DNA from: Saururus chinensis
Taxonomy: Eukaryota > Streptophyta > Magnoliopsida > Piperales > Saururaceae
Direction of reading: 5' to 3'
DNA: 64,000 bases
Assembly (NCBI GenBank): GCA_035235625.1
Contig: CP141148.1
Location: 6,567,001-6,631,000, forward strand
Numbering within the stretch: position 1 is the first letter of the stretch; every line of letters starts with the position of its first letter. The position numbers and the translations under genes were made by a program. Under the pieces are notes generated by a model. The model was not told the DNA's origin and searched no databases. It saw nothing but the letters and a program-made list of their open reading frames with translations. Shown in pieces: positions 155 through 54,387 of this stretch.

Positions 155-339
155 TACTCCCTTCGTCCTATATTAATAGCTCCAATAGAAAAAAAAATGG
201 TGTTCCATATTAGTTGCTCCTTTTGGTTCAATTTTAGTTGTTACACAGGTCTATCATGCTTCTCATACAATTTATTTTTTACTTCACTCCACAAACAGGA
301 GAAGCCAATTGTCATCCTCCATATATATTAATTGCTCTG

Positions 340-968
340 GTCCACCTGTCTACCACAACACCACCTCTCCTCCCACCACCATCCCCATCTCCGTTAGCCC
401 ATACCTTATGTTGTAGTCGTACACCCTTTGCCACATCTTGAACAGCGTGCACCACAACCCTCCATTCCCCTCATGTAGTTGAACGGCTCCCTGGGGATGT
501 CCCCTTCATGATGGTCGTACCCGCTGTCATGGCCGACAAACCCACCATGGTTGCAGTCTAGTAGTAGAAGACCGACGATGAGACGATGACTAGATAACCC
601 GCCTCCACAACCAACTTTGTATTATTCGGGCTGTTTTTCCATGTTTGCAGGATTACTGACTCCACCGGCAATGCGGCCAGGCTGATGCTCAAGACTAAGT
701 CCAGTAGCACGTCCTCCCAATACATGACGGTCCGGTTTAGCGATTCAATGAAGGGCTGAGTCGAGTTGATGAAGACCTCAAACAGCTGACTCACGGTCCC
801 AACGTTGGAGAGGAAGTTCTGGATAGCTGGGACCAACTTCCAACACCCTAGGGCCACCTCGTGGCGCTAGGATGGTAGAAGGACTCCGGGAATAGCCTGA
901 CCACATCGTGGATGATGTTGCGGACTACCTCATAGGTCTTCGGGTTGAGCAGAACATCATTTCATGGA
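340..968 (-). pseudogene. GH20 beta-N-acetylhexosaminidase fragment (HEXO type)
   Basis: Glycoside hydrolase family 20 enzymes remove terminal N-acetylglucosamine or N-acetylgalactosamine from glycans, in plants in the vacuole, membrane or apoplast. On the minus strand I read, in protein order, [20 protein letters not shown], then EVALGCWK, then [91 protein letters not shown] and GGEVVLW. These match the catalytic-barrel half of plant HEXO proteins. There is a frameshift just before EVALGCWK that destroys the Asp-Glu catalytic pair region, a stop after FYY, a further frameshift after the HDSGYD segment, and a TAG after VVLW. It is dead, lacks the N-terminal domain, and lies inside the Stowaway-like element. 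Identification is by recall of the family. Confidence 0.82.
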
Positions 969-981
969 CAACGATATTATG

Positions 982-3900
982 TGTCACGCCCCGGTGATGC
1001 CCGACCCGAGCCGAACCCGGTCCAGGGGCCGGTCAAACGCGCGGGGGCGACGAAGTGAAAATTTAGAAAAATGATCTAGCGGAAGACTTAATCCCTAACC
1101 ACGGGCGATTAACAGAAACACGGAGTGCACACAATCCTTTGAGCAAGAGTAAATAAAAAGGGAGAAAATGTGTTGCTTATCACAAAGTAAACAACAATCT
1201 CAAACCCACAAACTTAGTTAAGTAAAGCCCACACCGGCTCAAAATAAGTCATAAGCATCACAACTGCCTAATATGACATAAATCCAAACAAGAACCCTAC
1301 ACAAAGGTTCGAACATAAAGCATGAAATAAACGCAGGTAAGTCACGCAACGATCTCCATCATCACACCCAAGCTACCTCTGACCTTTCTTCATAGAGGCA
1401 ATCCTGTCCGTCTGCGTGTCACACCACGCAGCCCCAAATCCAAACACAAAAGAGGGGTGAGTTTTAACACTCAGCAATGGTTTTAAATATCACTGTCAAC
1501 GTAGAAAATACGATAGCTTAGAAATGAGATCATTTCAGATCAAAGATTTACATGGTGCATCACTTTCTGATCACACATTCATATCACTTAACACTGCATC
1601 ATAATGCATAATTCAACCTGCATGGATGTATCTCTAGCATACATATTCCCACATGCATTCACATCATAACCAATCCCGCATGGATGTATCTCTAACATAC
1701 ATATTCCACATGCATAACATCAAAATCAACATGCATGGATGTATCTCTAACATACATATTCCACATGCATAACATCAACACTAACATGCATGGATGTATC
1801 TCTAACATACATATTTCACATGCATAACATCAACACCAACATGCATGGATGTATCTCTAACATACATATTCCACATGCATAACATCAACACCAACATGCA
1901 TGGATGTATCTCTAACATACATATTCCACATGCATAACATCAAATCAACATGCATGGATGTATCTCTAGCATACATATTCCACATGCATAGTATCAAATC
2001 AAACTCCATCAAGGAGTAACCACACAATAATGTCACACAGACGGGAGCATAGACAAGGCCACAAAGGCGTGTCATGGTCCAAAATTCTACACAAGAATTC
2101 AAGAAAGATCGGGGTTGTCAATCCCTAATACTGCTCGCCCTGGACGATCCTGGCCAAGGATGTCCCATTCTCACACAGAGAATCTAGAGCAGGGGTGTTC
2201 GCCCAGGGACATCTCCTGCGGAGGGAAGAGCCCGAGTTCTCACACAGAGAACCCTAGAACACGTGGTAGCGGGGTGCACACGGCATACCACACTGGATTC
2301 TCAGGGTCCAGATGACACACATAATAATATTCTCACATATCCGCAAGACAAGTACACAACTCGTCCCCACATCATACCATTAAACAAGACTCAACCCGGG
2401 GAGTGCACTCATTCCACACAGGAACTTCAAATCAAAATATGTCCTTTCGGACCAATCAACTTGCGATTAATCCACGACCGATAAACCCGGCACACAATTC
2501 CATCACATTGTATCCAATCGGTCAAATTCGATTAATCACGATGAAGCCTCAATTGAAAATCCATTTTCATGATGCGTGCAGCATGGTACATGCGTGGGCA
2601 AAGCATACATGAATCCTAATCATGATAAGTGTTCTCACCAACCCCTAATGCATCATTCATAATCACGATATTAAGCTTCAACATCATCATTTAACCCCCA
2701 CATGTGTGTGTAACTAGTAGAAGCCTTTCACATAATGCATATCAACATGCTTGAAAATCAACTCACTACCACACTACACATGTGGATTTCTATCTAAACA
2801 TGAATTCCAGTGGAAATCATAGTAGAAGAATCGTTGAAATCATAGCTAGATTCAAAACTCAACCACAAAGGCTAAACGCATATAACATCACTCATTTCAT
2901 CATTGAGTCATGGCATTCACCAACATTCACACACCATTAATCACAATCTATCATGACAAATTAGTCCAACAATGAGTGTAGTCCTACTGAAAATATATGC
3001 TTAATCAAAGGGAACAACCATTCATAATTTCAAGATAACGATTCCAACATCATGCCACAAAGCATGTCATTCCACCATCTCTAAGCATATATCTCAACTC
3101 CATAAACTCAATAGCATGCATTTTCAGTAGCCTAACATAGCTTAAAACACTCCACATTCATATAAAATTGACAAGCTAAAGTGGAATCATCAAAATAGGC
3201 ATCATACACACAACATACAATTTTCTGTGTAGCCGATCGATCACCCTTCAGACCGTTCGATCGGTTACACGCAAAAATTTGAAATTTTCAGTTCAGCCGA
3301 TCGATCGCCCTGCAAGGCCGATCGATCGCCAACATGGCAGAACAGTCATCTTCTTCCTTTCGCAAAATCAAACCGAAACACCATAGATAACACTTCAAAT
3401 CCACATCTAACACCCTAATCATCATCAAAAGTCCTCCTTGACTTCCAGAATATCAAACCAAACCATAATAATGCAAAACCCTAAGAAATCAGGATTAAAT
3501 AATTCCATTTTCTAATCTTACCATTAACACACTAAATCAAGCAAACCATTTCGAAATAAGCCAAAAATGAAGAGTTTTACCATGGATAAACAGAGATTTT
3601 GAAGACCCATTACCTCAGCACTTGATTAAGCTCGGATTGAAGAGTCACCCTTCTTGAAATACTTGAAAACACAATGAGTTTGAATTAAACTTTAATGGAA
3701 ATCGATTTACTCAAGAAATCCCTAATTAAACCTTAGATCTAGGGCTTGTTGGTAGTAAAAATCGAATTTTGAATGTTAGGGTTTGTAGTAAAACACAAAT
3801 CAGTAGCTTTTGATGGTAAAAAATGAATTAAACTAAGGGGAAAATGGTAGATTTGGAAGAAATTAAGAGAAAAGCCATGGATTAGTGCTTAATTAGAGCA

Positions 3901-4430
3901 AGCTTACCTTAATCGGCTTCTAATTCGGGCCTAAGTGGGGATTAGGCCAGCCTTCCTTCCTTAGCCTATTTCCAAAAATGGAAATGACTCAGGTTTGCCC
4001 TTTTATAGTAAAGGTTGAGGTAGGCATAGGTAAGTTTTGGGGTGTAAATACGAAAAGTAGGCTAAAAGTGGATATTTTACAAATTTAAGCATAATTTAAG
4101 CCTAATAAAATTCTAAAAATTTTTGTGGGACCTTAAGTATATGTCTAGGTTCATTTGACACAAAAATAAAATTTTTGACGGTGGGGCCCACAGGGGTCCC
4201 GCCAAAACCCTAATTTTTGGGAAAATAGTGAAAATTCCAAAAAATCTCAAAAATTCACATTTGGTTTAAAATCACTTAAAACAACAAATGTTGAAGTTAA
4301 TTTTGGTTAAAACCATCACAAACTCTATTTATTTCATGAAATCACCAAATAAGATTAGAAAATGCGTAAATCTCACGATAACCCATAATTAAAGAAAACC
4401 AAAACCGGTTTAAAGATGAGGGTCCTTACA
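982..4430 (-). mobile_element. Solo LTR A (large, probably Ty3/gypsy)
   Basis: Boundaries are TGTCACGCCCCGG at 982 and GGGTCCTTACA ending at 4430, flanked by the 5-bp duplication TTATG (977-981 and 4431-4435). On the minus strand it begins TGTAAGGACCC and ends GCGTGACA, the TG...CA format. A TATAAAA box lies on the minus strand at 4001-4007, so the element points left. No gag-pol sequence or second LTR is present, so this is a solo LTR of 3449 bp. It is the inverted near-twin of LTR B (20815-24147). Inside are seven 56-bp tandem repeats (1615-2000) and a cluster of GATCGATC motifs (3230-3335). The gypsy assignment is inferred from size and terminal motifs. Confidence 0.92.
1615..2000 (-). repeat. 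About 56-bp tandem repeat, seven copies, in LTR A
   Basis: The unit contains GCATGGATGTATCTCTAACA followed by TACATATTCCACATGCATAA. About seven head-to-tail copies are visible. LTR B carries only four of the same unit (23300-23520), so copy number changed after or between insertions. Confidence 0.9.
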
Positions 4431-4435
4431 TTATG

Positions 4436-4750
4436 GATGTCACCCACGGCCTGGGAGACTACGAGGTCATCTTCCTGTCCGCGTTGGTGGGCATGGACAG
4501 CCAAGCACATGGCCCCTGGGAAGTTCAGCTTCAGGCCCTGCATCATCTTTACCTCCACCTGCATGGTGCTTTCCCTCTCACTTCACCTCCCCAAATCGAC
4601 CAGATGGTGCCAAGGAGTACAGGGACACAAAGGAGCTCGAACTATTGTAAAATGTAGATAATCTTATAAGTATATGACAATATAAGTTTTTATTACGTTG
4701 TATGTTACGTGGAACTTATTATCTAATAAAAATGACAAAAAAATAGATAT
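4436..4750. other. GC-rich then AT-rich interior of the Stowaway-like element
   Basis: The first part, up to about 4630, is GC-rich and open in more than one frame. It is probably more captured sequence, but I could not match it to a hexosaminidase exon or to any other family. The rest is AT-rich terminal sequence of the element. Confidence 0.4.
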
Positions 4751-4779
4751 GGAGCTATTAATATAGGACGAAGGGAATA

Positions 4780-7052: not shown

Positions 7053-7544
7053 GTTTAGGAATGCAACAAGTACCCCTTCCAGTCTAGAAAAAATGAATGT
7101 CAACTATAGAATTTGTTACATTCACCTTAAACATTTTAATGATGGCTCTCTTAGCACCCTTTTCTTCCTCTAAAATATTAAAATCTTGCAAGACTCGTTG
7201 ATCTTGCATATTATGACAAATTCAACAACATTATTGGTATGTGTGATATACCTATGAAAATGAATTTATCACTCTTTACTTTGTTTAACATCCATCGAAT
7301 ATAATCCTTGTTATAGTCAGATCGACCATAACCCAATTGTAAGAACTTTGATTTATATAATGGGGATGCAATAGCAAAGAGACGTTATATTTGCCATGAG
7401 ATTTGCATGTCATGGGGCCTGAAGATCTTAGATAAGAGATGTATCACGTTCTAATAAACATGATTGTCTGAAAGAAGTAACAAGCTAAAGAATGTGTTAG
7501 ATGCAATTTGTACCTAAATATGCACATCAAGCAATCACTTTCTG
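7053..7544. other. Intergenic DNA, nothing recognised
   Basis: AT-rich sequence between the tandem repeat and the malectin exon. The kinase-domain exons expected downstream of a minus-strand LRR-malectin receptor kinase are not here. Confidence 0.45.
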
Positions 7545-7898
7545 GGACCTTTCCAGGATTGAGAATCAGCATCATCCATAACTATCTCTACAAAATGGAG
7601 TTCAACATTGTATTCTCCATTCCTTAGCCCAAAGCGGAAGTATCTTAATGATCTTGGAGAAATTTGAGCAGTTTTGTATAGTTCTGACTCCAAAGTAGCA
7701 GTAATCTGAGAATATGCTATTGCAAAATAATTCAGGCCGCTGGGTTGGAAATGTAAAATCCTGCACTGCTTACTGCCTATTGATGTTTTGTGCTCACATC
7801 TACTGAAGCAGGTCCTAAAATATCAGTGTCATCATAGAAAATAATGCCTGAAGCTGATATCTGCTTTGTGCCACCATAGTTTACTGAGAATGAAGAGT
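7545..7898 (-). pseudogene. Malectin-domain exon of an LRR receptor-like kinase, decayed
   Basis: Malectin domains form the extracellular carbohydrate-binding-like module of plant LRR-VIII receptor kinases. On the minus strand a 3' splice site (TTTTATTGTAG) precedes 7898. The reading then gives SFSVNYGGTKQISASGIIFY, DDTDILGPASVDVSTKHQ, a stop where Trp is normal, AVSSAGFYISN, and after a frame change SELYKTAQISPRSLRYFRFG, LRNGEYNVELHFVEIV and SQSWKG. These follow the family order, including the NCGG-like start (here NYGG) and the hydrophobic FAEI-like strand. The downstream FDIYIQG motif and kinase domain are missing. It belongs with the LRR exon at 9140-9204. Confidence 0.78.
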
Positions 7899-10439: not shown

Positions 10440-12190
10440 GACCATGGCTATCTTCCTCTACCACCGCTTTGATCCTCAAAGGACACCAATTTTCTATGGT
10501 ATACAAAATATTTATCATAGCCATACCTAGAGGAGTACCACAGCAGAGATTTCTCTCATCAATATGCTCCACATCAAGACCGATAAACCATGAACCTAGA
10601 TAAACATGCTCATTTGCATATATGTGAAATATATGTGAAGTAAATGCCTGCAAAACAAATGACACTATCAAAGAAGGACTTTGGATTCAAATGAGTGTCT
10701 TTGTTAGCTATAGGAGCTCAGTTCACTGATTGAATGATATATAAGTTGTCAAACCATTGGAAATTGCATAAAGCTGACGTGTAGCTGTCTAAAATACTTG
10801 TTCCCTTCCTCACCAAACTTCCAGTATTCTAGCTCATGGTACTTTGCTCCCCTGTCAATACAACTTGTTATTTTCTGTCAGCAAAGTAAGACACAATGTT
10901 CACAGGAACTTCACTAAAAGTTGTCATCTTACTTCTGGGTCAAGACAGCCTTGATTTCATGCAACCAATATAAACCCGTGGCTTTGATTGATGGCGAACC
11001 CTAGAAGCAACCATGCTTGTTAAAATTATTCTTAAGCTCAAAAGTGAAAGATTCAAGCATGTGTTTATGATAAGTGCTCAGAGAAGATGTGCTTCCACTA
11101 ATGAGGATTGACATGTATATCATCATCCACTTTGACATAAAAGTCAGCATCCCACTTTGCAACAGCCATTGAGAAGTATATTTGAGTTTTGGAAGACAGC
11201 TCATGATACCCTTCTACATGGTCCTGTTAGTGATATTATTCAAACTACTAAGATAGATGTAATTCAACCAAGCATAGAATTGTATCATCAGGCTCCAGCA
11301 TAGTATATGGCAGACTGATTATTGACTATGTCTAATTAGTTGTGAGGAACAAGTGTATCTTAACATGAATAATTTGGTACTACTTGGAAGTTTGATCATG
11401 CTACATACGTGTGGTTAACCGAACCTACATACATGTGGCCAATTACAAAATGCATAGCAATACCCTTTTCTTTTTCTAACCACTTTAAGTTTTCCCCTGT
11501 TACTATGCACAATCATATCAGAAATGCACTATCTTTAAAACTGTTACTTATAAGCAATAATTCATTGATAAGTAGACCTTGAGGCATCTATGTTTCTTGA
11601 ACTGAATCTCTTCTCTTTCTACTAGTAAATGCTGTTATAATTCCCATCACTATGAAGACTTTTTGTTGTTGTTTCAATTGATCAATTCCCACTTTACAAG
11701 CAACCGGTGATACGTCCCAGTTGCTTGCTTGTGCAGCTCTAGCAGTGGCCAACTACATTTCAAGATTGGAGATTGTTTTATCTAGAGACCTGAAATTATC
11801 AGAAAGCTTGTGTTTGATCATAACATGCAGCCACATCCCACATATGAATGTGAGAAATGAGTTCCTATGTAGATTGATTAAAGTTTACATAATCACTTCA
11901 TGTGTTTATGAAACACGACTAAGAATATCCCCTGCTGTGTCTGACAACTCCTAAAATAAAGGAGCTACTCATTAGAACCGTGCAAGTGCAATGCCAGTTT
12001 CTTTTTAAAGAGACAAGAGAGCATGATGACTACACAAACACAACAAACTTAATAATGTTACTGCCACTAATATAATTCTAAACTAACCTTTTTTTGGCAA
12101 TGAATTCCTGGTTCATTGACTCTTTCTTGATATCTTCTTAAAGACAAAACTTCTTCACTTATTTTAACAGGCTGAGAAATACTCCATAGC
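10440..12190 (-). pseudogene. GT31 beta-1,3-galactosyltransferase-like pseudogene
   Basis: Family 31 transferases are Golgi type II membrane enzymes that add galactose to arabinogalactan or N-glycan acceptors. Four pieces occur in order on the minus strand: exon 12088-12190 with clean AG/GT borders (LWSISQPVKISEEVLSLRRY, tentatively N-terminal); SRKRRDSVQET, stop, MPQG near 11575-11645 (family SRKRRDSVRETWMPQG, so TGG became TAG at 11588-11590); [20 protein letters not shown] then [20 protein letters not shown] at about 11101-11223 with the DxD metal motif intact, followed by a stop at 11098-11100; and an exon starting at 10647 with [20 protein letters not shown] and [12 protein letters not shown], the C-terminal signature. 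The C-terminal tail is degenerate. Splice signals survive but two stops make it non-functional. Confidence 0.85.
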
Positions 12191-15837: not shown

Positions 15838-18800
15838 GTAGTATTAGCGACGCAAATTTAAGCATCACTAAAAATAACTAATTGCGACATATAAAAAATG
15901 TTAAAAAAAATAAATTATTAGCGACGCATTATCTTATACGTCGCTAATAATCACATATTAGCGACACTTAGCTTAAAGTATCACTAATACTAATCATATT
16001 AGCAACACTTAATCACAAGTGTCGCTAATAGTTCCTCTATTTCTGACGTTTTCTACAAACGTCACTAAAAGATACATATTTTAAATAAAAAGTAAAAAAA
16101 ATATAACTATTAGCGACACTTTTTTTAGACGTTGCTAATGGCTTTCACATTAGTGACGCATTTAAAAAAGTGTCGCTAATAGTGTTGTTATTAGCGATGT
16201 TTTAAATAAGTGTCACTAATAGTTATTAATTAAAAAAATTGAATTATTAACAAAGCTGTTAAATAAGCATCGCAAATACCTTTCATAATAGTGACGCTTA
16301 TTTACAAGTGTCGCTAATAGTTTTTATTAATTAATTTTATTTAATAAATAAAAATTAAAAATTTCAAATAAACTTTGTAAATATAATATATTTTATTCAA
16401 TATTTACTATTTGTATATATAATAAATAAATATTAAAATTACAATAAAAAGTAGTATTAACAATTGATTAAATTTTTACTAATTATATATAATATATATT
16501 TTATTTCTTAAATTTTCTTATTAATTTTAAAATATAATTTAGAATAAAAGAGAGAGATGAGAGAGTGCATGGAGAGAGAGAGTGGAGAGAGAGTGAGGAG
16601 AGAGAGGGTAGAGAGAGAGGGTGAAGAGAGAGTGTGTGAGGAGAGAGAGAGTGAGGAGAGAGGGAGGGAGAGAGAGGATAGTGAGAGAGGGAGGGAGTGA
16701 TGAGGAAAGAGAGACAGGGAAGGAGAGAGGGAGAGGGTGGAGAGAGTGAAAGAAAGAGGAGAGAGGGGGTGAAGAGAGAGAGAGTAGAGAGGGAAAATTT
16801 TAATTTTAATTTTTTATATTTTTTATTTTAAAAATAAATAAATATGTAGAGAGAGAAAAATAGAAAGGATATAGAGAGAGAGGAGAGAGGGAGGAGAGAG
16901 AGGAAGGGATAGAGAAGAGGAGAGAGAGGGAGGAGAGAGAGAGGGAGGAGAGAGTAGAGAGTGAAATTTTCAATTCTAAATTTTTTATATTTTTATTTAA
17001 AAATTAATTAAAAATAAAAAAGTAAATATGTATTGGTGACGCATATCGGTATGCGTCACTAATACTTTTATTATTAGCGACGTATAAAAATGTGTCACTA
17101 ATACTAAGGGTATTAATGACGTATATTCTTATGCATCACTATTACCTTATAATTTATTATATTTACATTTAAATATGTAGAGAGAAATTTTGAGGATATA
17201 GTGAGAAGTAGAGAGAGATGGTGAGGAGAGAGAGAGTGTGGAGAGAGGGAGGGAGAGAGAAGGTGAGGAGAGAGTGGGAGGAGAGAGAGGGAGAGAGGAG
17301 AGAGGGAGAGGGGGAGAGAGAGAGAGAGGAGAGGAGAGAATAGACAGAGAGGGGTGAGCAGCATGAGTAGAGAGGGAAAATTTTAATTTTAATTTTTTTT
17401 ATTTAAAAATTAATTAATAAATAAAAATATATGTAGAGAGAGAAAAATAGAAAGGATATAGAGAGAGAGTAGAGGGGGAGAGAGAGAAGAGGAGAGAGAG
17501 GTGGAGAGAGAGAGGAGAGAGAGAGGGAAGAGAGGGGAGGAGAAAGAGAGAGTGAGGAGAGAGGGTGAGGGGAGAGGGAGAGAGAGAGAGGAGAGAGATT
17601 AGGGAGGGATAATTTTAATTTTAAAATTTTTTGTTTAAAAACTAATAAAAATTAAATAAATAAATATGTATTAGTGACGTAGGTTGGTATGTGTTACTAA
17701 TACTCTTATTATTAGTGACGTATAGAATTATACTTCGCCAATACCTTTGGCATTAGCTACGCATATTACTATACAGTACTAAAAATAAAAGTTAATAGCG
17801 ACGCATATTATTACCTGCTAATTGATTATATTAATTTTGAAATATGTAGAAAGAGAAAAAATAGAGGATATAGATAGAGAAGAGAAAGGGGGAGAGAGAG
17901 GAGAGAGGGGAGATATAAGAGGAGAGGGAGGGAGGGAGAGAGAGAGAGAGAGAAGAGAGGGGGAGGAGAGAGGGAGGGAGAGAGAAGAGGAGAGAGGAGG
18001 GGGAAGGGGAGGAGGAGGGGGAGAGAGAGAGGAGGGAGACGGAGAAAGAGGAGAGAGAGAGGGAGCAGAGAGGGTGGAGAGAGTATAGGGAAAATTTTAA
18101 TTTTAGTTTTTTTATATCTACCATTTTTTAAAAATTAAATAAATAAATATGTATTAGAGACGCATATAGGGATGCATCGCTAATATTCTTACTATTAGCA
18201 ACTTATAGTATTATGTGTCGCTAATACCGAGGGTATTAGCAACATATATTCATATACATCGCTATTACCTTATAATTTATTATATTACTTTTAAAATATG
18301 TAGAGAAAAAAATTGAGGATATAGAGAGAGAGGAGAGAGGGGAGAGCGAAGAGAGAGGGAGGGGAAGAGAGGGGAGAGGGAAGAGAGAGGGAGGGAGAGA
18401 AGAGGAGAGAGAGGGGGAGGGAGAGAGGGAGGGGAGAGGGAGAGAGAGAGAGGAGAGAGAGGAGGGAGAGAGAAGAGGAGGGAGAGAGAGCGGAGAGAGG
18501 GAGGGAGGGAGAGAGAAGAGGAGAGAGAGGGGGAGAAAGAGAGGAGAGAGAGGGAGGGAGGAGAGAGAGAAGAGGAGAGAGAGGGGGAGAAAGAGAGGAG
18601 AGAGAGGGAGGGAGGAGAGAGAGAAGAGAGAGAGGGAACAGAGAGTAGATAGGAAAAATTTTAATTTTAGTTTTTATATATTTTTTATTTAAATTTAATT
18701 AAAAAATAAATAAAAATATATTAGTGATGCATATAGGTATGCGTCACTAATACTCTTATTATTAGCGATGTATAGGTATATACGTCACGAATACTAGGGG

Positions 18801-19500
18801 TATTAGCGACATATATACCTATATGTAGCTAATAATAAGGGTTAATAGCGATGCATATTCCTATTCGTCGCTATTACCTTATAATTTATGTAGAGAGAGA
18901 AAAAAATTGAGGTGATAGAGAGAGAGGAGAGAGGGAGGGGAGAGAGAGGAGAGAGAACAGGAGAGAGAGGGGGAGGAGAGAGGAGAGGAGAGAGAGGAGA
19001 GGGAGAGGAGAGAGGGGAGAGAGAGGAGAGGGAAAGAGGGAGGAGAGAGAGGGAGAGAGGAGAGGGAGAGAGGAGAGAGAGAGAGAGAGGAGAGGGTAGA
19101 GAGAGAGAGAGAGAGGAGAGGGAGTAGGGAGGAGAGAGGAGAGGGGGAGTGAGAGGATAGAGATGACAGGGAGAGAGAGAGAGGAGAGAAAGGAGAGGGA
19201 GAGAGGAAAGAGAGATAGGAGAGAGAGAGGAGAGAGGAGAGAGAGAGGAAGGGGAGAGTGTAGAGAAAGTAAGAGTATTTGTTAACACTTGTGTATAAGT
19301 GTCACAAATAATACGATGCTAGCGACGTTTATATATAATTGTCCTAAATAAAAATTATTGGCGATGTTTAATAAAATGTCGCCAATATATAAATATTTGC
19401 AATGGTTTTATTATTAGTCGGCAAAAAATAAATTTTTGCGACGCTTAGACAAAGCGTCGCAATTACATTCATTTGCGACGCTTTCTAAGTGTCGTAACAA
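15838..19500. repeat. CACTA-1 left subterminal array
   Basis: Composite higher-order repeat. Small inverted pairs of TTAGCGACGC / GCGTCGCTAA-like motifs (many with TTAGTGACGC) alternate with purine tracts of GAGAGAGG type and AT-rich spacers. From about 16540 the larger unit is [GA tract, about 120-350 bp][AT spacer][two to four palindromic CGACGCATA...TATGCGTCAC pairs], repeated roughly five times to 19290. The purine tracts at about 16541-16795, 16845-16965, 17170-17370, 17428-17605, 17845-18080, 18300-18650 and 18890-19275 are all purine on the + strand. The open frames in them are low-complexity artefacts. Confidence 0.9.
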
Positions 19501-19702: not shown

Positions 19703-21904
19703 TGTAACCCCCCGACTCAAGCCGGGGTGAACAAAATATCTAATAAAAAATTTTAAATCACTTAAGCCAAGAATCATCATCTGTGTGTGAGAGGTACAAC
19801 ATTCATCCACGATGACAGAGCTTTAGAGCTTTCCCTTGCATAGACTTAGTTGTAACGTTCACATACACATGACAAAGTTTCATAATTAGTCACGTATAAA
19901 TGAGAATAAAACTTATAATTATAAATAAATTGAATCGGGCTAATGTTGCTTTGCCATTGGTTGCCTATGTACATATTGAATAACATTTAAAATGTTATTC
20001 CAAAACGATCGGATCTGAACGTAGTTCTGCCTAATGGCAATTACATATATCAGACATCATAAAATTATATACGTTAAAGTATGTATATTCTTATACTCAA
20101 ATATATCATTCGGAGTTAGATTAAAATCTCATAAATCATGGAAGTCGGACAAAAGTTTAATAAATCATATAAATCGTCAGAGTTAAATAGAAGCTGACAC
20201 ATTAACTAGATTACACACCTCAAATTATATCGGATAAAACATAACAAATTAATTCAAATCAGAACATATTAATTCATATATCTTAATTAGTATATTATTA
20301 TCACTAATAAGATGTGTAAGCGTATAAATAAATTAATATCCTAAGTTAACTACTTAGGATATATACATATTCTCATACAAAAGATCATGTATACTTATCT
20401 ATAGGAGACATTGGAAACGGCAATGTTTAGGGTTGTTCGTTTCTTAGATTGTCCTCCTTTTTAGATCAGGATATAGAAGGCAGAATCTCCTTTGAAGTAG
20501 ATGGACGTAGCATCCATTAGCCTAGAGATGCTCCTTATTTTCCTTGCTCGAAGGTGACAGGTAGAACATCATCTTCACGGAGACATTTTCTACTTCCGCG
20601 CTTGTGAACTATGGGCGGAGCCTCCCCTTAGCTCGGAGATACTTTTCTTATTGGTTGGCTCTTCGGTGGAAGACAGAGCCTCCCATACTCTGGATTGCTT
20701 CTCTTATTGTGGCTCGGCAACTTCGAATAGAACCCTGTCTTGCTCCTGGCCCCTTTTTCTTTCAACAATGCTTGATAAAGACATGCAAGGTCTCTCCTTG
20801 TCTCGGGGCATTTCTGTAAGGACCCTCATCTTTAAACCGGTTTTGGTTTTCCTTAATTATTGGTTATCGTGGGATTAACGCGTTTTCTAATCTTATTCAG
20901 TGATTTCATAAAATAAATAGTGTTTGTGAAGGTTTTAACCAAAATTAACTTCAACATTAGTGGTTTTAAGTGATTTTAAACCAAATATGAATTTTTGGGA
21001 TTTTTTGGAATTTTCACTATTTTCCCAAAAATTAGGGTTTTGGCGGGACCCCTGTGGGCCCCACCGTCAAAAATTTTATTTTTGTGTCAAATGAACCTAG
21101 ACATATACTTAAGGTCATACAAAAATTTTTAGAATTTTATTAAGCTTAATTTGTGCTTAAATTTGCAAAATACCCACTTTTAGCCTACTTTTCATATTTA
21201 CACCCCAAAACTTACCTATGCATACCTCAACCCTTACTATAAAAGGGCAAACCTGAGCCATTTCCATTTTTGGGAATAGGCTAAGGAGGGCTGGCCTAAT
21301 CCCCACTTAGGCCCGAATTAGAAGCCGATTAAGGTAAGCTTACTCTAATTAAGCACTAATCCATGACTTTTCTCTTTATTTCTTCCAAATCTACCATTTT
21401 CCCCTTGATTCAATTTGTTTTTGACCATCAAAAGCTACTGATTTGTGTTTTACTACAAAACCTAGCATTCAAAATTCAATTTTTACTACCAACAAGCCCT
21501 AGATCTAAGGTTTAATTAGGGATTTCTTGAGTAAATCGATTTCTATTAGAGTTTAATTCAAACTCATTGTGTTTTCAAGGATTTCAAGAAGGGTGACTCT
21601 TCAATTCGAGCTTAATCAAGTGCTGAGGTAATGGGTCTTCAAAATCTCTGTTTATCCATGGTAAAACTCTTCATTTTTGGCTTATTTCGAAATGGTTTGC
21701 TTAATTTGGTGTGTTAATGGTAAGATTAGAAAATGGAATTATTTAATGCCGATTTCTTAGGGTTTTGCATTATTATGGTATGGTTTGATGTTCTGGAAGT
21801 CAAGAAGGACTTTTGATGATGATTAGGGTGTTAGATGTGGATTTGAAGTGTTATCTATGGTGTTTCGGTTTGGATTTGCGAAAGGAAGAAGATGACTGTT
21901 CTGC

Positions 21905-22015
21905 CGTGTTGGCGATCGATCGGCCCTGCAGGGCGATCGATCGGCTAAACTGTAAATTTCAAATTTTTGCGTGTAACCGATCGAACGGACTGAAGGGCGA
22001 TCGATCAGCTACATA
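21905..22015 (+). repeat. GATCGATC motif cluster in LTR B
   Basis: Within about 110 bp occur GCGATCGATCGGC twice around the palindrome GCCCTGCAGGGC, then ACCGATCGAACGG and GCGATCGATCAGC. The same cluster is in LTR A (3230-3335), and related CGATCGAT words occur in the insertion in LTR C2 (50985-51140). Self-complementary, CpG-dense; function unknown. Confidence 0.7.
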
Positions 22016-23299
22016 GGAAATTGCATGTTGTGTATATGATGTCTATTTTGATGATTTTACTTTAGCTTGCCAATTTTATATGAATGTGGAGTGTTTTAAG
22101 GTATGATAGGTTACTGAAAATGCATGCTATTGAGTTTATGGAGTTGAGATATATGCTTAGAGATGGTGGAATGACTTATGTTTTGTGGCATGATGTTGGA
22201 ATTGTTATCTTGAAATTATGAATGGTTGTTTCCCTTTGGTTAAGCATATTTTCAATAGGACTACAATCATTATTGGACTAATTTGTCATGATAGATTGTG
22301 GTTAATGGTGTGTGAATGTTGGTGAATGCCATGACTCAATGATGAAATGAGTGATGTTATATGTGTGTAGCCTTTGTGGTTGAGTTTTGAATTTAGCTAT
22401 GATTTCAACGATTCTTCTACTATGATTTCCGCTGGAATTCATGTTTGGAAAGAAATTCACATGTGTGGTGTGGTAGTGAGTTGATTTTCAAGCATGTTGA
22501 TATGCATTATATGAAATGCTTCTACTAGTTACACACACACATATGGGGTTAAATGATGATGTTGAAGCTTGACATTGTGAGTAGGAATGATGCATTAGGG
22601 GCTGATGAGAGCACTTATCATGGATTAGGATTCATGTATGTTTTTCCCACTCATGTACCATGTTACACGCATCATGAAAATGGATTTCCAAGTGAGGCTT
22701 CATCGTGATTAATCGAATTTGACCGATTGGATGCAATGTGATGGAATTGTGTGCCGGGTTTATCGGTCGTGGATTAATCGCAAGTTGATTGGTCTGAAAG
22801 GACATATTTTGATTTGAAGTTCCTGTGTGGAACGATTTGAAGTTCCTGTGTGGAACGATTTGAAGTTCCTGTGTGGAACGAGTGCACTCCCTGGGTTGAG
22901 TCTAATTAAATGGAATGATGTGGGGACGAGTTGTGTACTTGTCTTGCGGATTGTGAGAATGTTATTATGTGTGTCATCTGGACCCTGAGAATCCAGTGTG
23001 GTATGCCGTGTGCACCCTGCTACCACGTGTTTTAGGGTTCTCTGTGTGAGAACTCGGGCTCTTCCCTCCGCAGGAGATATCCCTGGGCGAACACCCCTGC
23101 TCTAGATTCTCTGTGTGAGAATAGGACATCCTTGGCCAGGATCGTCCAGGGCGAGCAGTATTAGGGATTGACAACCCCGATCTTTCTTGAATTCTTGTGT
23201 AGAATTTTGGACCATGACACGCCTTTGTGGCCTTGTCTATGCTCCCGTCTGTGTGACGTTAATGTGTGATTACTCCTCGATGGAGGTTGATTGTGATGA

Positions 23300-23520
23300 C
23301 ATTATGCATGTGGGAATATGTATGTTAGAGATACATCCATGCATGTTGATTTTGATGTAATGCATGTGGAATATGTATGTTAGAGATACATCCATGCATG
23401 TTGAATTGTGAAATAATGCATGTGGGAATATGTATGTTTGAGATACATCCATGCAGTTTGATTTGATACTATGCATGTGGGAATATGTATGTTAGAGATA
23501 CATCCATGCAGGTTGAATTA
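23300..23520 (+). repeat. About 56-bp tandem repeat, four copies, in LTR B
   Basis: Four copies of ATATGTATGTTAGAGATACA followed by TCCATGCATG. This is the same unit as the seven-copy array in LTR A. Confidence 0.9.
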
Positions 23521-25328
23521 TGCATTATGATGCAGTTTTTAAGTGATGTGAATATGTGATCAGAAAATTATACACCTTGTACATCGTTAATTTGAAAGAT
23601 TATATCGCCATGCTATCGTATTTTCGATGTTGTTAGTGATATTAAAACCATTGCTGAGTTTGTTAAACTCACCCCTCTTTTTGTGTTTTGATTTGGGGCT
23701 GCGTGGTGCGACACGCGGTGACGGTGAGATTGCCTCTTTGAGGAAAGGTCAAAGATAGCTTGGGTGTGATGATGGAGATCGTTGTGTGGCTTACTTTCGT
23801 TTGTTTCATGCTTTATGTTAGAACATTTGTGTAGGGTTCTTATTTTGGATTTATGCCATCTTTTACAGTTGTGATGCTTATGACTTATTTTGAGCCGTGT
23901 GGGCTTTACTTAACTAAGTTTGTGGGTTTGAGATTGTTGTTTACTATGTGATAAGCAACCCTTTCCTTTCCCTTTTATTTACTCTTGCTCAAAGGATTGT
24001 GCGCACTCCGTGTTGTTGTTAATCGCCCATGGTTAGGGTTAAGTCTTCCGCTAGAATCGTTTCTTAATTTTCACTTCGTCGCCCCCGCGCGCTTGACCGG
24101 CCCTTGGACCAGGTTCGGCTTGGGTCGGGCATCGCCGGGGCGTGACAATTTCCTCCTCATACAGTCGCCAACTTAGAGAATGGACCCCTCCATTGCATAG
24201 AACACACTTAATTCACTCAAGAATGCCTCTTAAATAGGCTCAATCGGAGTAAGAATGATCAGAAACAGAGAAGGAGAAGTTCTCCGGTATTTGAGGACGA
24301 CGGGCAGAGCCTCTGCTTGTCTTAGGGCGTTTCCTCCTTATACGGTCTCCAACTCAAAGAAATGACCCCTCCATTGCATAGAGCACACTTGATTGACTTA
24401 AGAACGCCTCTTGAATGGCCTTAATTGGACTCAGAACGCTCAGAAACAAAGAGAATGAAATTCTAATTCAAAAACGGAAGAAAAGGGGTATATATAACCA
24501 CTAAGCCCCACCAAAACCGCGTGCAGCACGAGTTGCGCCAGCACTCCACGGTTCATATCCATGGCCTTGCGTTATGTGTGTGGGAAAGCACGCAGGCTAT
24601 TCTTTTCTTTTTTTAAAAAACAAATCTTCAAATACGCTAAACTTCCTACCCCGGATTCAAATTTGTGCGTTCTTGGTATCGTTGGACTTGTATCGAGGAG
24701 CACTTTGATATTAAACCACTTAAAGTAGTATAACCAACTCTTTTTAAATGGGTCCTGCCTATTTTTACATTTCCCGAGGTCATAACTTCCAATCTCAACC
24801 TCTGTTTCACGCGGTATTTGATTTGTTATGCTTGTTTCTTCGAGCTTTACTCATATATGAAGGTTTCGACCTCTGAAACCCTCTATAATTTATCAAAAAA
24901 AATAACTAATTACCTCTAACCCCATGGTTAGATGTAATCAAAAAAATAGGGTATTACAGTCTGCCTCGTTGCACCCCAACTGCCATCTTTGCCCACGTCC
25001 TAGCCACTCAGCACGGTCCACCCCGCTGCACCCTGGCTGCCCTCTACCACCACTCGTCTGCCCAAACTGCACCCCAGCCTCCTATCCGCCCTCTACCACT
25101 GCCCGTCTACCCTGCCGTCCCAACCGCCCATTCGCCCTGTGCACCCCAGCCCACCTCCGCCCCTGCTGCACCCCAGTTGCGTGTCCACCCCAGCATCCCA
25201 GCCGCCTTTCCACCCCGCTGCACTCCAGCCGCCCTCCGCCATCCCCCATCTGCCACCGGCCATCCCACTCTACTCCACCTCCCTTCCTCTCCTCAGTTCC
25301 CCCCTTCTCACCCCATCTCCCCCCTTCC

Positions 25329-40384: not shown

Positions 40385-41150
40385 TTACATTGAGAAAATC
40401 ATAAAAAAATTTAATAAGAATGATAATCGTCCAGCGAGAACACCTGTGGATGTAACATTGCACTTAAGCAAAACATGGGTGAGAGCATATCACAACTTCT
40501 ATATTCTCAAATTATTTGAAGTCTTAATTACATCATGAATTGTATGAGACCAGACATCGCATACTCAGTGAGTAAACTAAGTAGATTTAATAGTAACCCA
40601 GGGGCAAACCACTGGAAGGCTGTAGTCGGGGTTCTTAGATATCTAAGATATACCTTGAACTATGGGCTGCATTATACTAGGTATCCAGCAGTACTAAAGG
40701 GTTAATGTGATGCAAACTGGATATCTGATACAAAAGACTCAAAATCCACAAGTGGATATGTCTTTACACTTGGAGGTGCAACAGTGTCTTGGATATCCTC
40801 GAAACAAAAGTGCATAATACGATCCACAATGGAATCTGAATTCATTGCGCTTGATAGAGCACGTGAAGAAGCTGAATGGCTTCATAATTTTTTAGAGGAT
40901 ATTCCAATGTGGGGGAAACCTGTGCCACCTATATGCATCTATTGTGATAGACAATCGGCTATAGAAAGAGCACAAAGTAACTTGTATAATGGTAAGTCTC
41001 AATATATACATCGGAGGCACAATACCATAAAATAATTACTCTCTAGTGGAATAATTTCTATTGAGTATGTTAGGTCAAAAGAAAATATTGCGGATTCATT
41101 TATTAAGGGATTGACCGGGAAAGGGTGTCTTCAACGAGATTTCCTATAAA
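40385..41150 (+). pseudogene. Ty1/copia reverse transcriptase end and RNase H remnant
   Basis: The C-terminal part of a copia Pol polyprotein. Segments in order: HYIEKIIKKFNKNDNRPART, TPVDVTLHLSK (end of RT), then after a frame change [127 protein letters not shown] and CLQRDFL. The RNase H carboxylates are visible: Asp in CDANW, Glu in MESEF, Asp in YCDRQ, and a final Asp in IADSF. A TAA before CDANW (around 40703), one after NTIK and frame changes disable it. The upstream gag, protease and integrase are absent. Confidence 0.92.
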
Positions 41151-41432: not shown

Positions 41433-41894
41433 TCATCCCACTTTTGTTATCCATATATCATCCAGCACAAGCAAGCATCTCTTATCCCTCACTAAATCTT
41501 GAAGGCTTCTCTGTAATGCTCCAAATGTCATGCCTGAATGATTTTCTTTTGCTACAAATTCAATGAGCTCTCTAGTTACTTTAGCAATGTCAAAAATGTC
41601 AGACACGCTTGACCAACTTCGCAAATTAAAATAATCTTCAATTTTTTTATCTTGGAAGACATGCTTGGCTAGAGTAGTCTTTCCTATGCCTCCCATCCCC
41701 ACTACCGAGATCACAGAGTATCTCTTCTTACTTGAACTAGTTGATGCTGACAAGTCTATTATGTTTTTTTTATCTTGATTTTTTGGGACATTCAACAGCA
41801 TAGGAAGCAAGATTGAGAAAGTAATGTCTACCAAAAGAGCCATGATCTTCTCTTCTCTAAATTGTTGAAGATAACAATTTGCGGGATGGAGCAA
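41433..41894 (-). pseudogene. Truncated NB-ARC (NLR disease resistance) fragment
   Basis: NLR proteins are cytoplasmic immune receptors. The 153-codon frame contains the P-loop GMGGIGKTTLAKHVF (residues 66-80), an RNBS-A-like segment YFNLRSWSSVSDIFD (88-102) and the kinase-2 motif RCLLVLDDIW (139-148), then stops. RNBS-B, GLPL, MHD and the LRR region are missing. The likely start is the internal Met at residue 18 (41843): MALLVDITFSILLPMLLN resembles the first helix of a coiled-coil domain, but it joins NB-ARC after about 25 residues, so most of the coiled coil appears deleted. It is convergent with the copia remnant 280 bp away. Confidence 0.88.
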
Positions 41895-42049
41895 AGAAGA
41901 ACCGATGAACTTCGCTCTCTGAATAGGAATGGAAGGCTATGCAGTCGACAGGAAGGTGCAGCATTATTGCTAGGCGGGACCCGTTGCTTGTTCAAAAAGT
42001 CAAAATAATTGATGCCGGTGGGCCCTTTAAGACGATTCCCTTTCATGCC

Positions 42050-48510: not shown

Positions 48511-49128
48511 TAGAATTGAGAATAGGTATGAGTAGTCCAATTTAATAAGTTTTTCCGTTCTTTTATCTACCAATGCATCAAATCTTGAGGATGATGTGGA
48601 CCAGAAAAACAAAATGTTGCATATCCTCCTTGTAGAGTCCTTGGGTGGCTTATATGGATCTTACCTAGAATAAAATAGGAAGCTTTATTGCATTGAAAAG
48701 CTAACTAAATGAGAAAAATAACTAAGCCTTGCAATCTTTCTCTTTCTTCCAATTCATCCCCAAATTCCTCATCCTTCCATCACTAAACATGCCCTTTCAT
48801 CTAATTCTTCTATGTATCATGTCCTTCCTATATTAATTACATTGTGAACATGCTAGTTAACATAATCAACCTGAGCTATTTGCAAGCTTTTAGTTGAGCT
48901 CAACCTACTTCTAGACTTAAGCTTACTTTTTATTTCTTTTAAATTTTTTGTCTATATTTTATCATAAAAATATTTTTTTCTTAAAAATGGCTTTTTGGGA
49001 ATATATTGGTCTCTATTCCCAATGTGGAATGTTTTGTATGTTTGTGTTCATTTGCAAAAAAAAAGGTATGTTTGTGCTCATGTGCAGTTGCCTCAAACTT
49101 CAAATGTGCCACAATACATGGATCATGT

Positions 49129-51554
49129 TGTAACACCCTGGGCCACGACCCAACCTAACCTCGGGGTTTGGAAAAGTAGATTGGAGTAAATATTTCAAAA
49201 TCTAAGAGTAGCTTATGTGTGTGAGAGTTATAATGTTCCTCTACGCGCTACAAAGCTTCATCACACATTGGCTAAAACAAACCTATTTTTGTGGCTAATT
49301 TGGATTAGACCAATGGTGTCGTGTCATTGGTTACATATATATGTATTAGATAACACCTACAATGTTATTCTAATATAATCGAATTTGAACGTAGTTATGC
49401 CAAATAGCTAATATAAGCATCAGGCATATTTCTCTCATTCTCTCTCTGTGCGTTCATAGTCAGCAGACAGAATATCCCCTCACCTGGGGCTTGTTTCTCT
49501 TTATGTGCCTATAGGCATCAGATAGAACCTACCCTTTACCCAGGATGTTTCTCTCATTACGGCCCAATGGAAGATGACATAACCTCCTCTTACTCTGGTT
49601 CTCTTCTCTCTTTGGGCTTGAGGGTGTTGGACATAGCATTCTCTTGCCTCAGGCTGTTTCCCCCCTCTAGAGCCACCAACTTGAGGAATGGACCATTGCG
49701 TAGAGAACCCTCAAATTAGCTAAGAATGCCTCTTGAACGGGTAAAATTGGACTCAAAATGGCCAAAAAAACTCTCCTGGAACTGAACGACTCTTCCTTAT
49801 TTATAGGGAAGAGTCCACGAGTGAACCAAGACGCATGAGTTGCCCACTGTGAGGCAGCCCATGATGACACATGTCCCAAGCTATGCGGTTCTACGTGTCT
49901 ATCGGCAGTTGACATCACCAAATCTATCTTTTCCCTATTTTTTTATTATTTTAATCAAATAATACTCCAAACTTCAAAATGCAACTTCCTACCCCAAGTC
50001 AAAATCGCGCATTCTTGGTACTAATGGACACATATCAACGAGCCATTCCAAACTAGACCCCACATAGATGGGTTATCCCGCACTTTTAGAGTGGGTCCTA
50101 CCCATGTGAAATGTTTCCTGAGGTCGTAACTTTCGCTCCCGACCTCCCTTTTGCACGTTATTTGATTGTTAAACTTGTTACTTTGAGATCTAACTATATA
50201 CAAGGATTTAGAGTTTAATATCCGTCTAATGGACTTAGCGGATCACTATAAATAAGAATCAAGAGTTTTAGCCTCTTTGCACAAAATTTTTATATTAAGT
50301 AGAAACAATTAAAATCTACTTTTCACTCAATTATCATTCTCAAAATATCAATTAATCATCTATCAATTAATCCACACATGAACAAAACAATTTATGTGGA
50401 AAACACCAACAAGAGTAAAAAACTACAGCAATTCCAAAGTTACTAAATCAATACACAATAAACTAAGACTTTACATTGACACAAGCAAACCATCTACCTT
50501 GTTTAGACTCTAACACAAGCTCCTCTTATTTAGAAAATTGTTGTTGAACTTCAAGTCTTCTCCAAACACCTAAAACTTTCTTCTCCTTGCCTTGTCTTTG
50601 TCTCTTTCTAGTCTTCAACAAGTACCTCTTGTTGTCTTTACTTTGGCCTTGTGAAAATCTTAGTCTTCCATTGAAGACACGTTGCAACTCTTCTTTGAAT
50701 ACTCTATATATACTCTCCCTTAGGTGTGGATTTTCTCCTTCAATTCATCATAGATCTTCAATATAAAGCTCAAGTGAATCCTCCTTTAGAAAACTATAAG
50801 CAAATATGTAAAGTCTCTTTTCTTTTCTCCTCTAGTAGGTTTTCCTCTCTCCAATATTGTGATTTCATAACTTATACAATTCATTAACTTGGTTTTAGAC
50901 TTGTACTTGAATAAGGAATGAAATGGAAATCAGAAGGTCTTGAATCAAGTAAATTGTTCTTAAAATGATGGATCATTCTAAATAGCGATCGATTGGTCAC
51001 TATTTTTAATGTACATGATTCTTCTATCAATCAACCGATTGCAAAAACGATCAACTGATAACTCTTGACTTCATTTTGTATAAGGATGAATTAAGAAGCA
51101 ATCGATTGTTTATCCTTCATAATTTGTAGCGATCGATCATTCTGCTTGAATTTTGATATTTTTACCCTTTTAACCTTCTAAAACTTATGTAATCATTCCT
51201 TAACTATTTCCAAGTGATTTATGTACACCAATGTGACCTGAATAAGCTTCAAAACTCTTCACATTCTTCAGTCTTTCACCTTGATTAATAAGAACATGCA
51301 TGTTCATATTTTTTAAGTATGTTAATTTCAAATCTAACTCGACTATAACAACCTCAAATCAGATTTTTAGGACTCATCACATATATATAGTTTCTTGACA
51401 TAATTTTGACAAAGAAATCAACCAATAAACTAGACATATGACTCATATGTTCTTCCAAGGATCTCATCCCTCAAAACCCCTAATTTTTGTCCAAAATTTT
51501 ATAATTAATACTAACCCCTCGGCTTAGACACAAACAAAAAAATAGGGCATTACA
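49129..51554 (+). mobile_element. Solo LTR C2 with internal insertion
   Basis: It begins TGTAACACCCTGGGCC at 49129 and ends AATAGGGCATTACA at 51554, flanked by CATGT at 49124-49128 and 51555-51559. It is a diverged relative of LTR C1: both share the GGTTACATAT region, GAACGTAGTT and the CTTGAAYGG block, and C2 has a TATTTATA box at 49798-49805. C1 has nothing corresponding to about 50280-51490, so C2 appears to carry a later insertion of roughly 1.2 kb with CGATCGAT words and CTATATATA (50705). No internal retrotransposon region. Confidence 0.88.
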
Positions 51555-51715
51555 CATGTGCAAGTGGTAAGTGTAGGTGAGAGCTACCTAGCAAAATGTT
51601 CCAATACGATATGGGTTGACAATGAGCTCAATTTCCCAAACCTGAGATAAAAAAGGCAACATGGCTTAAGATAATTTGGGCTAAAAAATAAGAGATGTTT
51701 TGAAAATAAATATAT

Positions 51716-51790
51716 ACTCTCTCCATCCTATATTAATAGCTTCATTTAGTTTTTCAAAATGAACTAATTTTAGTTCATTGTTAAAAACTA
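51716..51790 (+). mobile_element. Stowaway-like left end, unpaired
   Basis: TACTCTCTCCATCCTATATT followed by AATAGCTTCATTT resembles the left end of the element at 155. I found no matching inverted end downstream, so this is probably a truncated copy. Confidence 0.5.
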
Positions 51791-51957
51791 AATAGTCTTG
51801 GCCCTGGCCAAAACAGCCCTTTCAAATTTTCTAAATGGTGAGAACATCTTAGGATGCAAAGACACTTCAATTCCTCATGTCATGTAGTTGTAGTTTTGCA
51901 GTACTCGATTCGTCGGGGTGGTGAGGTCCGTACATAGAGGATTTTAAACGGGCTTTT

Positions 51958-52982
51958 TGTTGATCACAACATAAATAAGTGCTAAATTGATAAAAACGAC
52001 AAAGTACTTTTTGTAGAGTGGATAGACTAGTGGAAGCTTTGTGGGAGGGGTTTGGTACACAAATCAAAACTCTAAACCAATCTACACAAAGCATGCACAA
52101 AACTCAAACAATTAAGCAATAACACATGCATCCAATCAAAAATAGATCAAGTATAATTGAAACAAGGAATCAATACATACTGACCTGGGCCTTTGCAGCC
52201 CTAGCACACTCTCCTCATATAGATCTTGCACGTGAAATCACAAGAGCAATCAATCAAAGTAAAGGAGAAATACCTTATGTGATGATCCCTCTCAAACCAC
52301 CTCTTGGAGTGAAGGAATTCACAACAACTATCTAGCCCTAGAATCAGCCACAATGATCCCGCCTAGGAGGAGATGAATCTCCCTTGATCAGCCCGCCAAA
52401 GACGCCTTGGAGAGGGGAGAAGGATGGCAGCCAGCAGCAAGCAAATCCCTTGCTTGAGCAAGCCGCACCAAGAAAGCAAGGGAGAGAGGGGGCGGAATTG
52501 TGAGAGGAGGAGAAGGAGTGGGGCGGCCTTGTGTTACAGCACTCCTCCTCTCCCTTTCCCTTTAAATAGTCCCCAACTTACCTTATTTAGGTGGGTCTCT
52601 TTTTAGGCTATTCTAAATGGGCCTAGATGCTTAATTCCTTCCAGTTTATCTTAGAGGTTCAATCGCAAAGGGAGTGGGCTCAGCCTGAGGAGGCTTGTGC
52701 CCCCTGCACACGGCCAAGCCCGTGACAGGGTCGACCCCTTGCCCCACCTTCGACACTTAATTCATGCATCTAGGCCCCACAATGTGTAAATGCACAACCT
52801 AGCAAATGCCTAGTACACGTGTGAGAAGTATGTGGGTCCCACTCGAATTATGTGTAATGAAAGTTCATGTGGGGTCGGCGCGACCGCCCTCACCAACCTT
52901 GGACCCCGTGGCCCATACCGGTTCACCTGGACCGCTACATCATTGGACCAAACCGGGCCTGAGCCCATACCATGGTCCAACA
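51958..52982 (-). mobile_element. Solo LTR H, copia-like
   Basis: On the + strand it runs from TGTTGATCACAAC (51958) to CCATGGTCCAACA (52982), flanked by CTTTT at 51953-51957 and 52983-52987. On the minus strand it starts TGTTGGACCATGG and ends TGATCAACA, typical of Ty1/copia. A TATTTAAA box on the minus strand (52561-52568) supports that orientation. It is 1025 bp long. No internal region is seen. Confidence 0.85.
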
Positions 52983-53109
52983 CTTTTTATCAAAATAATT
53001 AGACCTTTTTGCCTAGTCCTTGGAATCGGGCAGAGGCCACTTACACATGTTAGTAAATTTCAGCTTTGTGCCACTGATTGTGCACAACGTCAATATATAT
53101 TATAAGGAA

Positions 53110-53590
53110 TTTCTCCATTATAAGAAGAAGAAAAGGATGTTCTAGGAGGAGGAACTGGTAGTATGGTTGAGGGTGCTCAAGTCTAATAGGAGGCAGTTAG
53201 GTGGAGGACAACCAGTTGGGAGGAGGAAGTCGTGGTAGGTTCTTACCCGGAGCCGATGAGAAGGACGAGCAAGAGGACGGACGAGAGGGAAGGAGGCTGT
53301 CCAGGCCCAGTATTGGGTGTGGAGTGCCAGACTTGGCAGTGGCGAAGTCCTCGTTGAACAAGATATATATACTTGATGGCAAAGAAGTTGACGGAGAGGG
53401 CTGAGATATATGGATGCCGCGGATGACGGGGGGGTGGAGGAAGGGGTAGAAGAAGGACATGAGGCCGGTGGCGTTGAGGAGGAGGAGGAGGAGGAGAAGG
53501 CAGTTAGGTAGAAGACAGCCCCCGTTGGAAGGAGGAAGTGGTGATGGGTTCTTATTCCATTAATACATTTTAAATTAGATGGCAAACATT
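53110..53590 (-). other. GC-rich block of unknown origin
   Basis: A GC-rich island in AT-rich DNA. Minus-strand frames of 147 and 87 codons overlap and both look Pro/Ser-rich. The 87-codon frame contains HISQPSPSTSLP, IYILFNEDFATAKS and PHPILGLDSLLP, which look protein-like, and the words PTG and ANWLSST-like tails repeat at both ends of the block. I do not recognise a family. It may be a gene fragment or the leader of an old LTR. Confidence 0.3.
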
Positions 53591-54387
53591 CCTAAAAAGG
53601 GAAACAAGATTTGCAATTACCTTCATGGAATTTCAAAATTATGATACGCATCTCTTTTTCAGTCTAGGAACATCTAAACCAGGCTAATGGTGGGCTCATT
53701 GCAAGTGTTCATGTAAGCTTCACAGCAGAACATATTCTCAACTACGATGCAAGAAGTAAAGACCACCTAGAGGGTGGGGCTGAGGGCGAGGTGGGTAGAA
53801 CTCAAGTGGAATTTATGAGTCCGGTCCCCTGTTTTGTACAGCCCACCTCTGCCACAAAGTTGCAATTCAGGTTTGGTTTGGCAGTGAGTCAATTCAGTTC
53901 AAATAAGGAAAATTAGGATATGGTTAAAAAAATTGGCCCTAAATTTATAAACAAGTATACAATAATAACTATTCAATCAAATAACTAAAAACAATGAAAT
54001 ATTTTTTTGCAAATGAGAAAAACACAAAATTTATGCAATATAGGAGGTGAAATTCCCAAATATTTGGATAAAATTTGCATCACCAAGATAAAATTTGCAA
54101 ATTTTGTAAATTTCAGAAAATTGAAAGAATATTCCTAGGACATTTGAGTTGTGATTCAAATATATTTAAAGAATATTTGGCCAAAATGAGACTTTTTGAC
54201 AAGCAGCCCATGAGGCTACTAGATGGATCAATTACTTAGCTCATGCTACTTATTAGAGTGGTCATTAGATGATTGGGCATGAGAGTCTTGATTAGGAAAA
54301 AAAATTTGCCCACAATGTTGGCCATGTATTTTACAAGTCATCAAGTGACCCATCAATATGCTAAAACAGTAGGGTCTTCTACACTAA

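Follow-up and report, generated by a model that had tools for sequence, protein, structure and literature searches.

Among the described systems closest to the locus analyzed here are the Pack-TYPE elements of the Mariner superfamily. According to the passages devoted to them in one study, these elements have been annotated in rice and maize, more commonly in rice, are mostly of low copy number, and carry TA duplications; rice Mariner cluster 217 contains one gene fragment, and PIF cluster 18 contains two fragments per element (PMC8903248). In grapevine, captured sequences occur in PIF and hAT elements, and the relevant passages of that report state that no Tc1/mariner element was detectable (PMC2528002). 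TA is the target site of Stowaway elements in the excerpt of a further source (PMC10004981). Pack-MULEs are thought to build multi-gene chimeras by template switching between unlinked genes. MULEs have long ends and 9-bp duplications.

The locus described here lies in a 64-kb window of the Saururus chinensis genome, the window being the whole stretch of DNA that was analyzed. Its AT-rich ends enclose a GC-rich segment, which is best explained as a chimera of at least two unrelated plant genes, namely a GH20 hexosaminidase (minus strand) and a nicotianamine synthase (NAS; plus strand). It resembles the Pack-Mariner elements of rice and maize, as the cited passages portray them, in its Stowaway-type ends, TA duplication, and internal coding-gene fragment, and differs from rice cluster 217, as portrayed there, in holding two unrelated, oppositely oriented fragments with hardly any spacer (PMC8903248). 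It shares the terminal sequence and TA duplication with Stowaway MITEs; however, its 1167 bp are more than the 800 bp to which the excerpt of one source restricts MITEs (PMC9319602), and it contains gene fragments. Like Pack-MULEs, it combines GC-rich pieces of several parents within one element, but its ends and TA flanks are of the Stowaway/mariner type.

The original prediction for this DNA proposed a Stowaway-like element that had captured a hexosaminidase fragment, and held that such capture is rarely reported for Tc1/mariner elements of the Stowaway type. Literature under the name "Pack-Mariner" appears to be sparse; capture by the Mariner superfamily is already known, having been published for rice and maize in the passages cited above (PMC8903248). 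Among the literature matches listed (titles and abstract openings), none was on point for NAS or hexosaminidase captured by a transposon. The chimeric content of this locus is somewhat more informative than a single fragment, and two unrelated head-to-head fragments bear on the mode of uptake, that is, contiguous mobilization versus template switching.

Results

Termini, base composition, and size of the element

The inverted ends (157-184 and 4750-4777; Table 1) are identical at 27 of 28 bases when the TA is left aside, and TA stands immediately outside both of them, as in Stowaway and Tc1/mariner elements. A search of the window with the pattern TAYTCCCTTCGTCCTATATTAATAGCTCCA, allowing at most three mismatches, returned two matches, 155-184 (+) and 4750-4779 (-), and none in 100 shuffles. 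The ends are of the CTCCCTCCGT type, the consensus of Stowaway ends; in a literature search this string was not found together with Stowaway. The predicted inverted termini with TA duplications were therefore confirmed, and the ends do match CTCCCTTCG, except that the right one is a base off, reading TTCCCTTCG with the terminal C missing. Rejoining the flanks gives a computed empty site of ...CTTTGTAA-TA-GTAAAG.... The end pattern had no match in viral and prokaryote collections, as plant DNA would predict. Under a loose pattern search, runs of CTCCCTCT-type simple repeats at 16655-19042 imitate a Stowaway end.

Table 1. Positions of the features of the locus within the 64-kb window
Feature	Position	Strand	Basis
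TA duplication, left copy	155..156		TA directly outside left end
Left terminal inverted repeat, CTCCCTTCGTCCTATATTAATAGCTCCA	157..184	+	Pattern match, end comparison
Left AT-rich subterminal part with TIR-like repeat (~315-337)	185..350	+	GC profile, local alignment
Decayed GH20 hexosaminidase fragment, probably captured	353..952	-	Four frame segments; Pfam and PDB matches
NAS fragment, left of nested insert	958..981	+	Added residues raise NAS score; 977-981 is one TTATG copy
Solo-LTR-like insert, 3449 bp, TGTCACGCCCCG...AGGGTCCTTACA	982..4430		Ends, TTATG duplication
TTATG duplication, right copy	4431..4435		Flank of nested insert
NAS fragment, right of nested insert	4436..4523	+	Pfam PF03059, unjoined and joined
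GC-rich stretch, possibly a third captured piece	4524..4645		GC 0.44-0.56 (profile)
Right AT-rich subterminal part	4646..4749		GC profile
Right terminal inverted repeat, TTCCCTTCGTCCTATATTAATAGCTCCA	4750..4777	-	Pattern match, end comparison
TA duplication, right copy	4778..4779		TA directly outside right end

GC content is 0.20-0.42 in the ends of the element versus 0.40-0.60 in its middle. The left subterminal part includes a TIR-like repeat that runs in the direction of the left end (score 26, reached by 1 of 300 shuffles). Although weak by blastn (14 bases, E 0.59), this repeat could be subterminal in nature or a relic. The GC-rich stretch toward the right end, where none of the frames submitted to Pfam reached a family cutoff, is possibly a third captured piece. 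In the subset of element frames submitted to Pfam, no transposase was matched. Without the nested insert and one of the TTATG copies, the sequence enclosed by the TA duplication amounts to 825 + 342 = 1167 bp.

Hexosaminidase fragment

The minus strand carries four GH20 segments (851-952, 561-866, ~409-560, and ~353-505), entailing three frame changes; the last two are supported in the stitched reading only. The frame 561-866 matched PF00728 above the Pfam cutoff (E 2.7e-14, 53.7 bits), bearing out the predicted decayed minus-strand hexosaminidase. Alone, the frame 851-961 scored 15.9 bits (E 0.0086; cutoff 22.3) at profile positions 140-165, which directly precede those of 561-866. Neither of the frames 409-621 and 353-505 gave a GH20 match in Pfam by itself, nor did a peptide stitched from these two. 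The hand-stitched reading of all four covered positions 141-320 of the 348 in the profile, at 95.6 bits (E 5.2e-27). Since ~600 bp span 180 profile positions, there is no space for an intron of the usual size.

Among solved structures, the GH20 piece matched 10 sequences at E ≤1, of which nine were beta-hexosaminidases (best E 7.9e-4). In the alignment with a beta-hexosaminidase beta chain, presumably the human one, HEVALGCW of this locus stands against DEVEFKCW, so that the first residue of the Asp-Glu pair, which we assume to be the catalytic pair, is replaced by His. NCBIfam gave no match for the GH20 fragment. A HEXO2-like assignment is not claimed for the piece.

Nicotianamine synthase fragment and nested insert

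The unjoined frame 4382-4654 (+), read from the unaltered letters of the window, matched PF03059 at positions 183-208 with 22.5 bits (E 8.2e-5; cutoff 27.1). Joining the sequence across the nested insert extended the match to positions 177-208, at 27.1 bits (E 3.2e-6), which equals the Pfam cutoff; the residues left of the insert account for a rise from 21.9 bits, the unjoined score in another run, to 27.1 bits (+5.2), which points to an uninterrupted NAS piece prior to the insertion. Its final stretch, AKHMAPGK, lies in a different frame and matches only with an 11-X spacer, picked after inspection: with this spacer before AKHMAPG, the score was 32.6 bits (E 6.8e-8, positions 177-224), and the AKHMAPG block alone had no Pfam match. 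Six of nine peptides in the joined-NAS run matched nothing up to E 10.

It could be argued that the NAS similarity arose by chance and that GH20 is the only captured fragment, given the unjoined score below the cutoff, the joined score equal to it over 32 profile positions, and the absence of matches in NCBIfam and, with a 37-residue NAS piece and a limit of E 10, in solved structures. We regard this as very improbable, because, across the 10 proteins of the unjoined-NAS run, no match to an unrelated family was better than E 0.032, because the far side of the insert adds to the score, and because the later block, in profile order, contributes 5.5 bits, the spacer having been chosen post hoc. 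Host coding-gene fragments, as in Pack-TYPE elements, thus lie between the ends, GH20 above its cutoff and NAS at its cutoff when joined.

The insert that divides the plus-strand NAS fragment is bounded on both sides by TTATG, and its longest stop-free stretch is 98 codons. A second copy at 20815-24147 (-) has identical 12-base ends and is flanked by ATTTC on either side. Aligned globally, the copies share 3086 identical positions and show 183 mismatches and 244 gap positions (94% identity over ungapped columns). In a blastn search of the window, the insert matched this one other copy and tandem repeats. The copy at 982-4430 has seven tandem units of ~55 bp (1610-2004), and offset matches suggest the same array in the copy at 20815-24147. 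The TG...CA ends, the 5-bp duplications, and the lack of an internal coding region are marks of a solo LTR; a Tekay-like lineage is not claimed for it. The insert appears to be younger than the Stowaway-like element.

The original prediction had placed about 630 bp of hexosaminidase sequence between the termini. The GH20 fragment is there, but the termini span 4.6 kb, of which 3449 bp belong to the younger insert, and the NAS fragment was overlooked. GH20 similarity starts at ~944-952 (-) and NAS similarity at ~958 (+), so that the two run head to head within ~15 bases; with an unrelated NAS piece in this position, a plain native HEXO pseudogene is unlikely.

One element or two insertions

Were the two ends parts of separate short MITEs, each would need an inner inverted partner, which was sought by local alignment against letter shuffles (n = 300). 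For the left end, equally good partners were found in 182 of 300 shuffles (region 185-460) and in 202 of 300 (185-981); for the right end, the count was 76 of 300 (4436-4749). Outside the element, even the best of four partner tests was equaled by 33 of 300 shuffles. No inner partner above chance was thus found in the window, which argues against two flanking MITEs. The two ends diverge beyond ~30 bases and have little common sequence there, so they could derive from different elements.

A lone Stowaway-like end is located at 51717 (51715-51745, +). It shares 24 and 23 of 28 bases with the ends of the element, which resemble each other more closely. Neither 48700-51714 nor 51747-54700 holds an inverted partner of the lone end that exceeds chance, which indicates that solitary ends occur in this genome. 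An upstream match in the same orientation as the lone end scored 30 and was rejected, 32 being the highest score among 100 shuffles.

Two independent Stowaway insertions or relics might accordingly flank a chimeric pseudogene, either native or made by another mobile element, a reading with which both the solitary end at 51717 and the lack of a second copy of the whole unit in the window agree. It seems to us rather improbable, since the ends face outward and are near-identical and TA-flanked, with no inner partner above chance, and since the other inverted repeats of the joined element reach at best E 0.59 by blastn.

Other features of the window

With blastn (E ≤0.01), the element matched only itself, its own ends, and 51715-51745, so that no parent gene was found in the window. 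Among the pieces scanned, the host-gene-like match nearest to the element is a malectin-domain piece at 7538-7822 (-) (PF11721, E 4.6e-11). An exon-like galactosyltransferase piece lies at 11101-11226 (-) (PF01762, E 8.1e-10), the one of six pieces scanned that matched this family; others resemble further exons by eye only. A piece of an NB-ARC (NLR-type) gene is found at 41436-41936 (-) (E 7.9e-22), and 40706-41032 (+) looks by eye like the RNase H of a copia retrotransposon, with no Pfam match up to E 0.01. The NB-ARC and malectin pieces, together with the type of the mobile elements, point to plant DNA.

Discussion

We consider it likely that the locus is a single non-autonomous Stowaway-type (Tc1/mariner) element that captured both the GH20 and the NAS fragments. 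Capture by a Stowaway-like element, as originally proposed, is still the best reading of this one locus; the proposal is supported in part, as it lacked both the NAS piece and the insert within it and as capture of this kind was already published.

The two fragments may have been acquired in more than one way. For Pack-TYPE elements, fusion has been proposed, in which two neighboring Stowaways flanked a piece of DNA, lost their inner ends, and mobilized everything between the outer ends; rice Pack-Mariner cluster 217 illustrates this in the passages concerned (PMC8903248). The degenerate TIR-like repeat just outside the GH20 piece could be taken for a trace of such an event; however, it is oriented like the left end, not inverted as the inner end of the first element should be, and no inverted relic above chance was found. 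Fusion would moreover take up contiguous DNA, and two unrelated, abutting, opposite pieces would need a chimeric source or repeated rounds. This makes fusion unlikely as the origin of the element.

Two unrelated opposite-strand pieces with hardly any spacer are the expected product of template-switching repair. On the capture reading, the gap left by the excision of a related element would probably have been repaired by copying ectopic templates, with switching between them, and a mariner-type transposase supplied from elsewhere may then have moved the chimeric element as one unit into a TA site. The NAS piece would afterwards have received an LTR retrotransposon, of which a solo LTR was left, and the coding pieces would have decayed. 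The locus looks dead. For the template-switching route taken by itself as the mode of fragment uptake, our confidence falls a little short of even.

With the same reservation, we tentatively propose that a Stowaway/mariner-type element built a multi-gene chimera from unlinked genes by template switching and not by contiguous mobilization. If true, this would mean that a gap-repair route of capture is common to Stowaway elements and Pack-MULEs.
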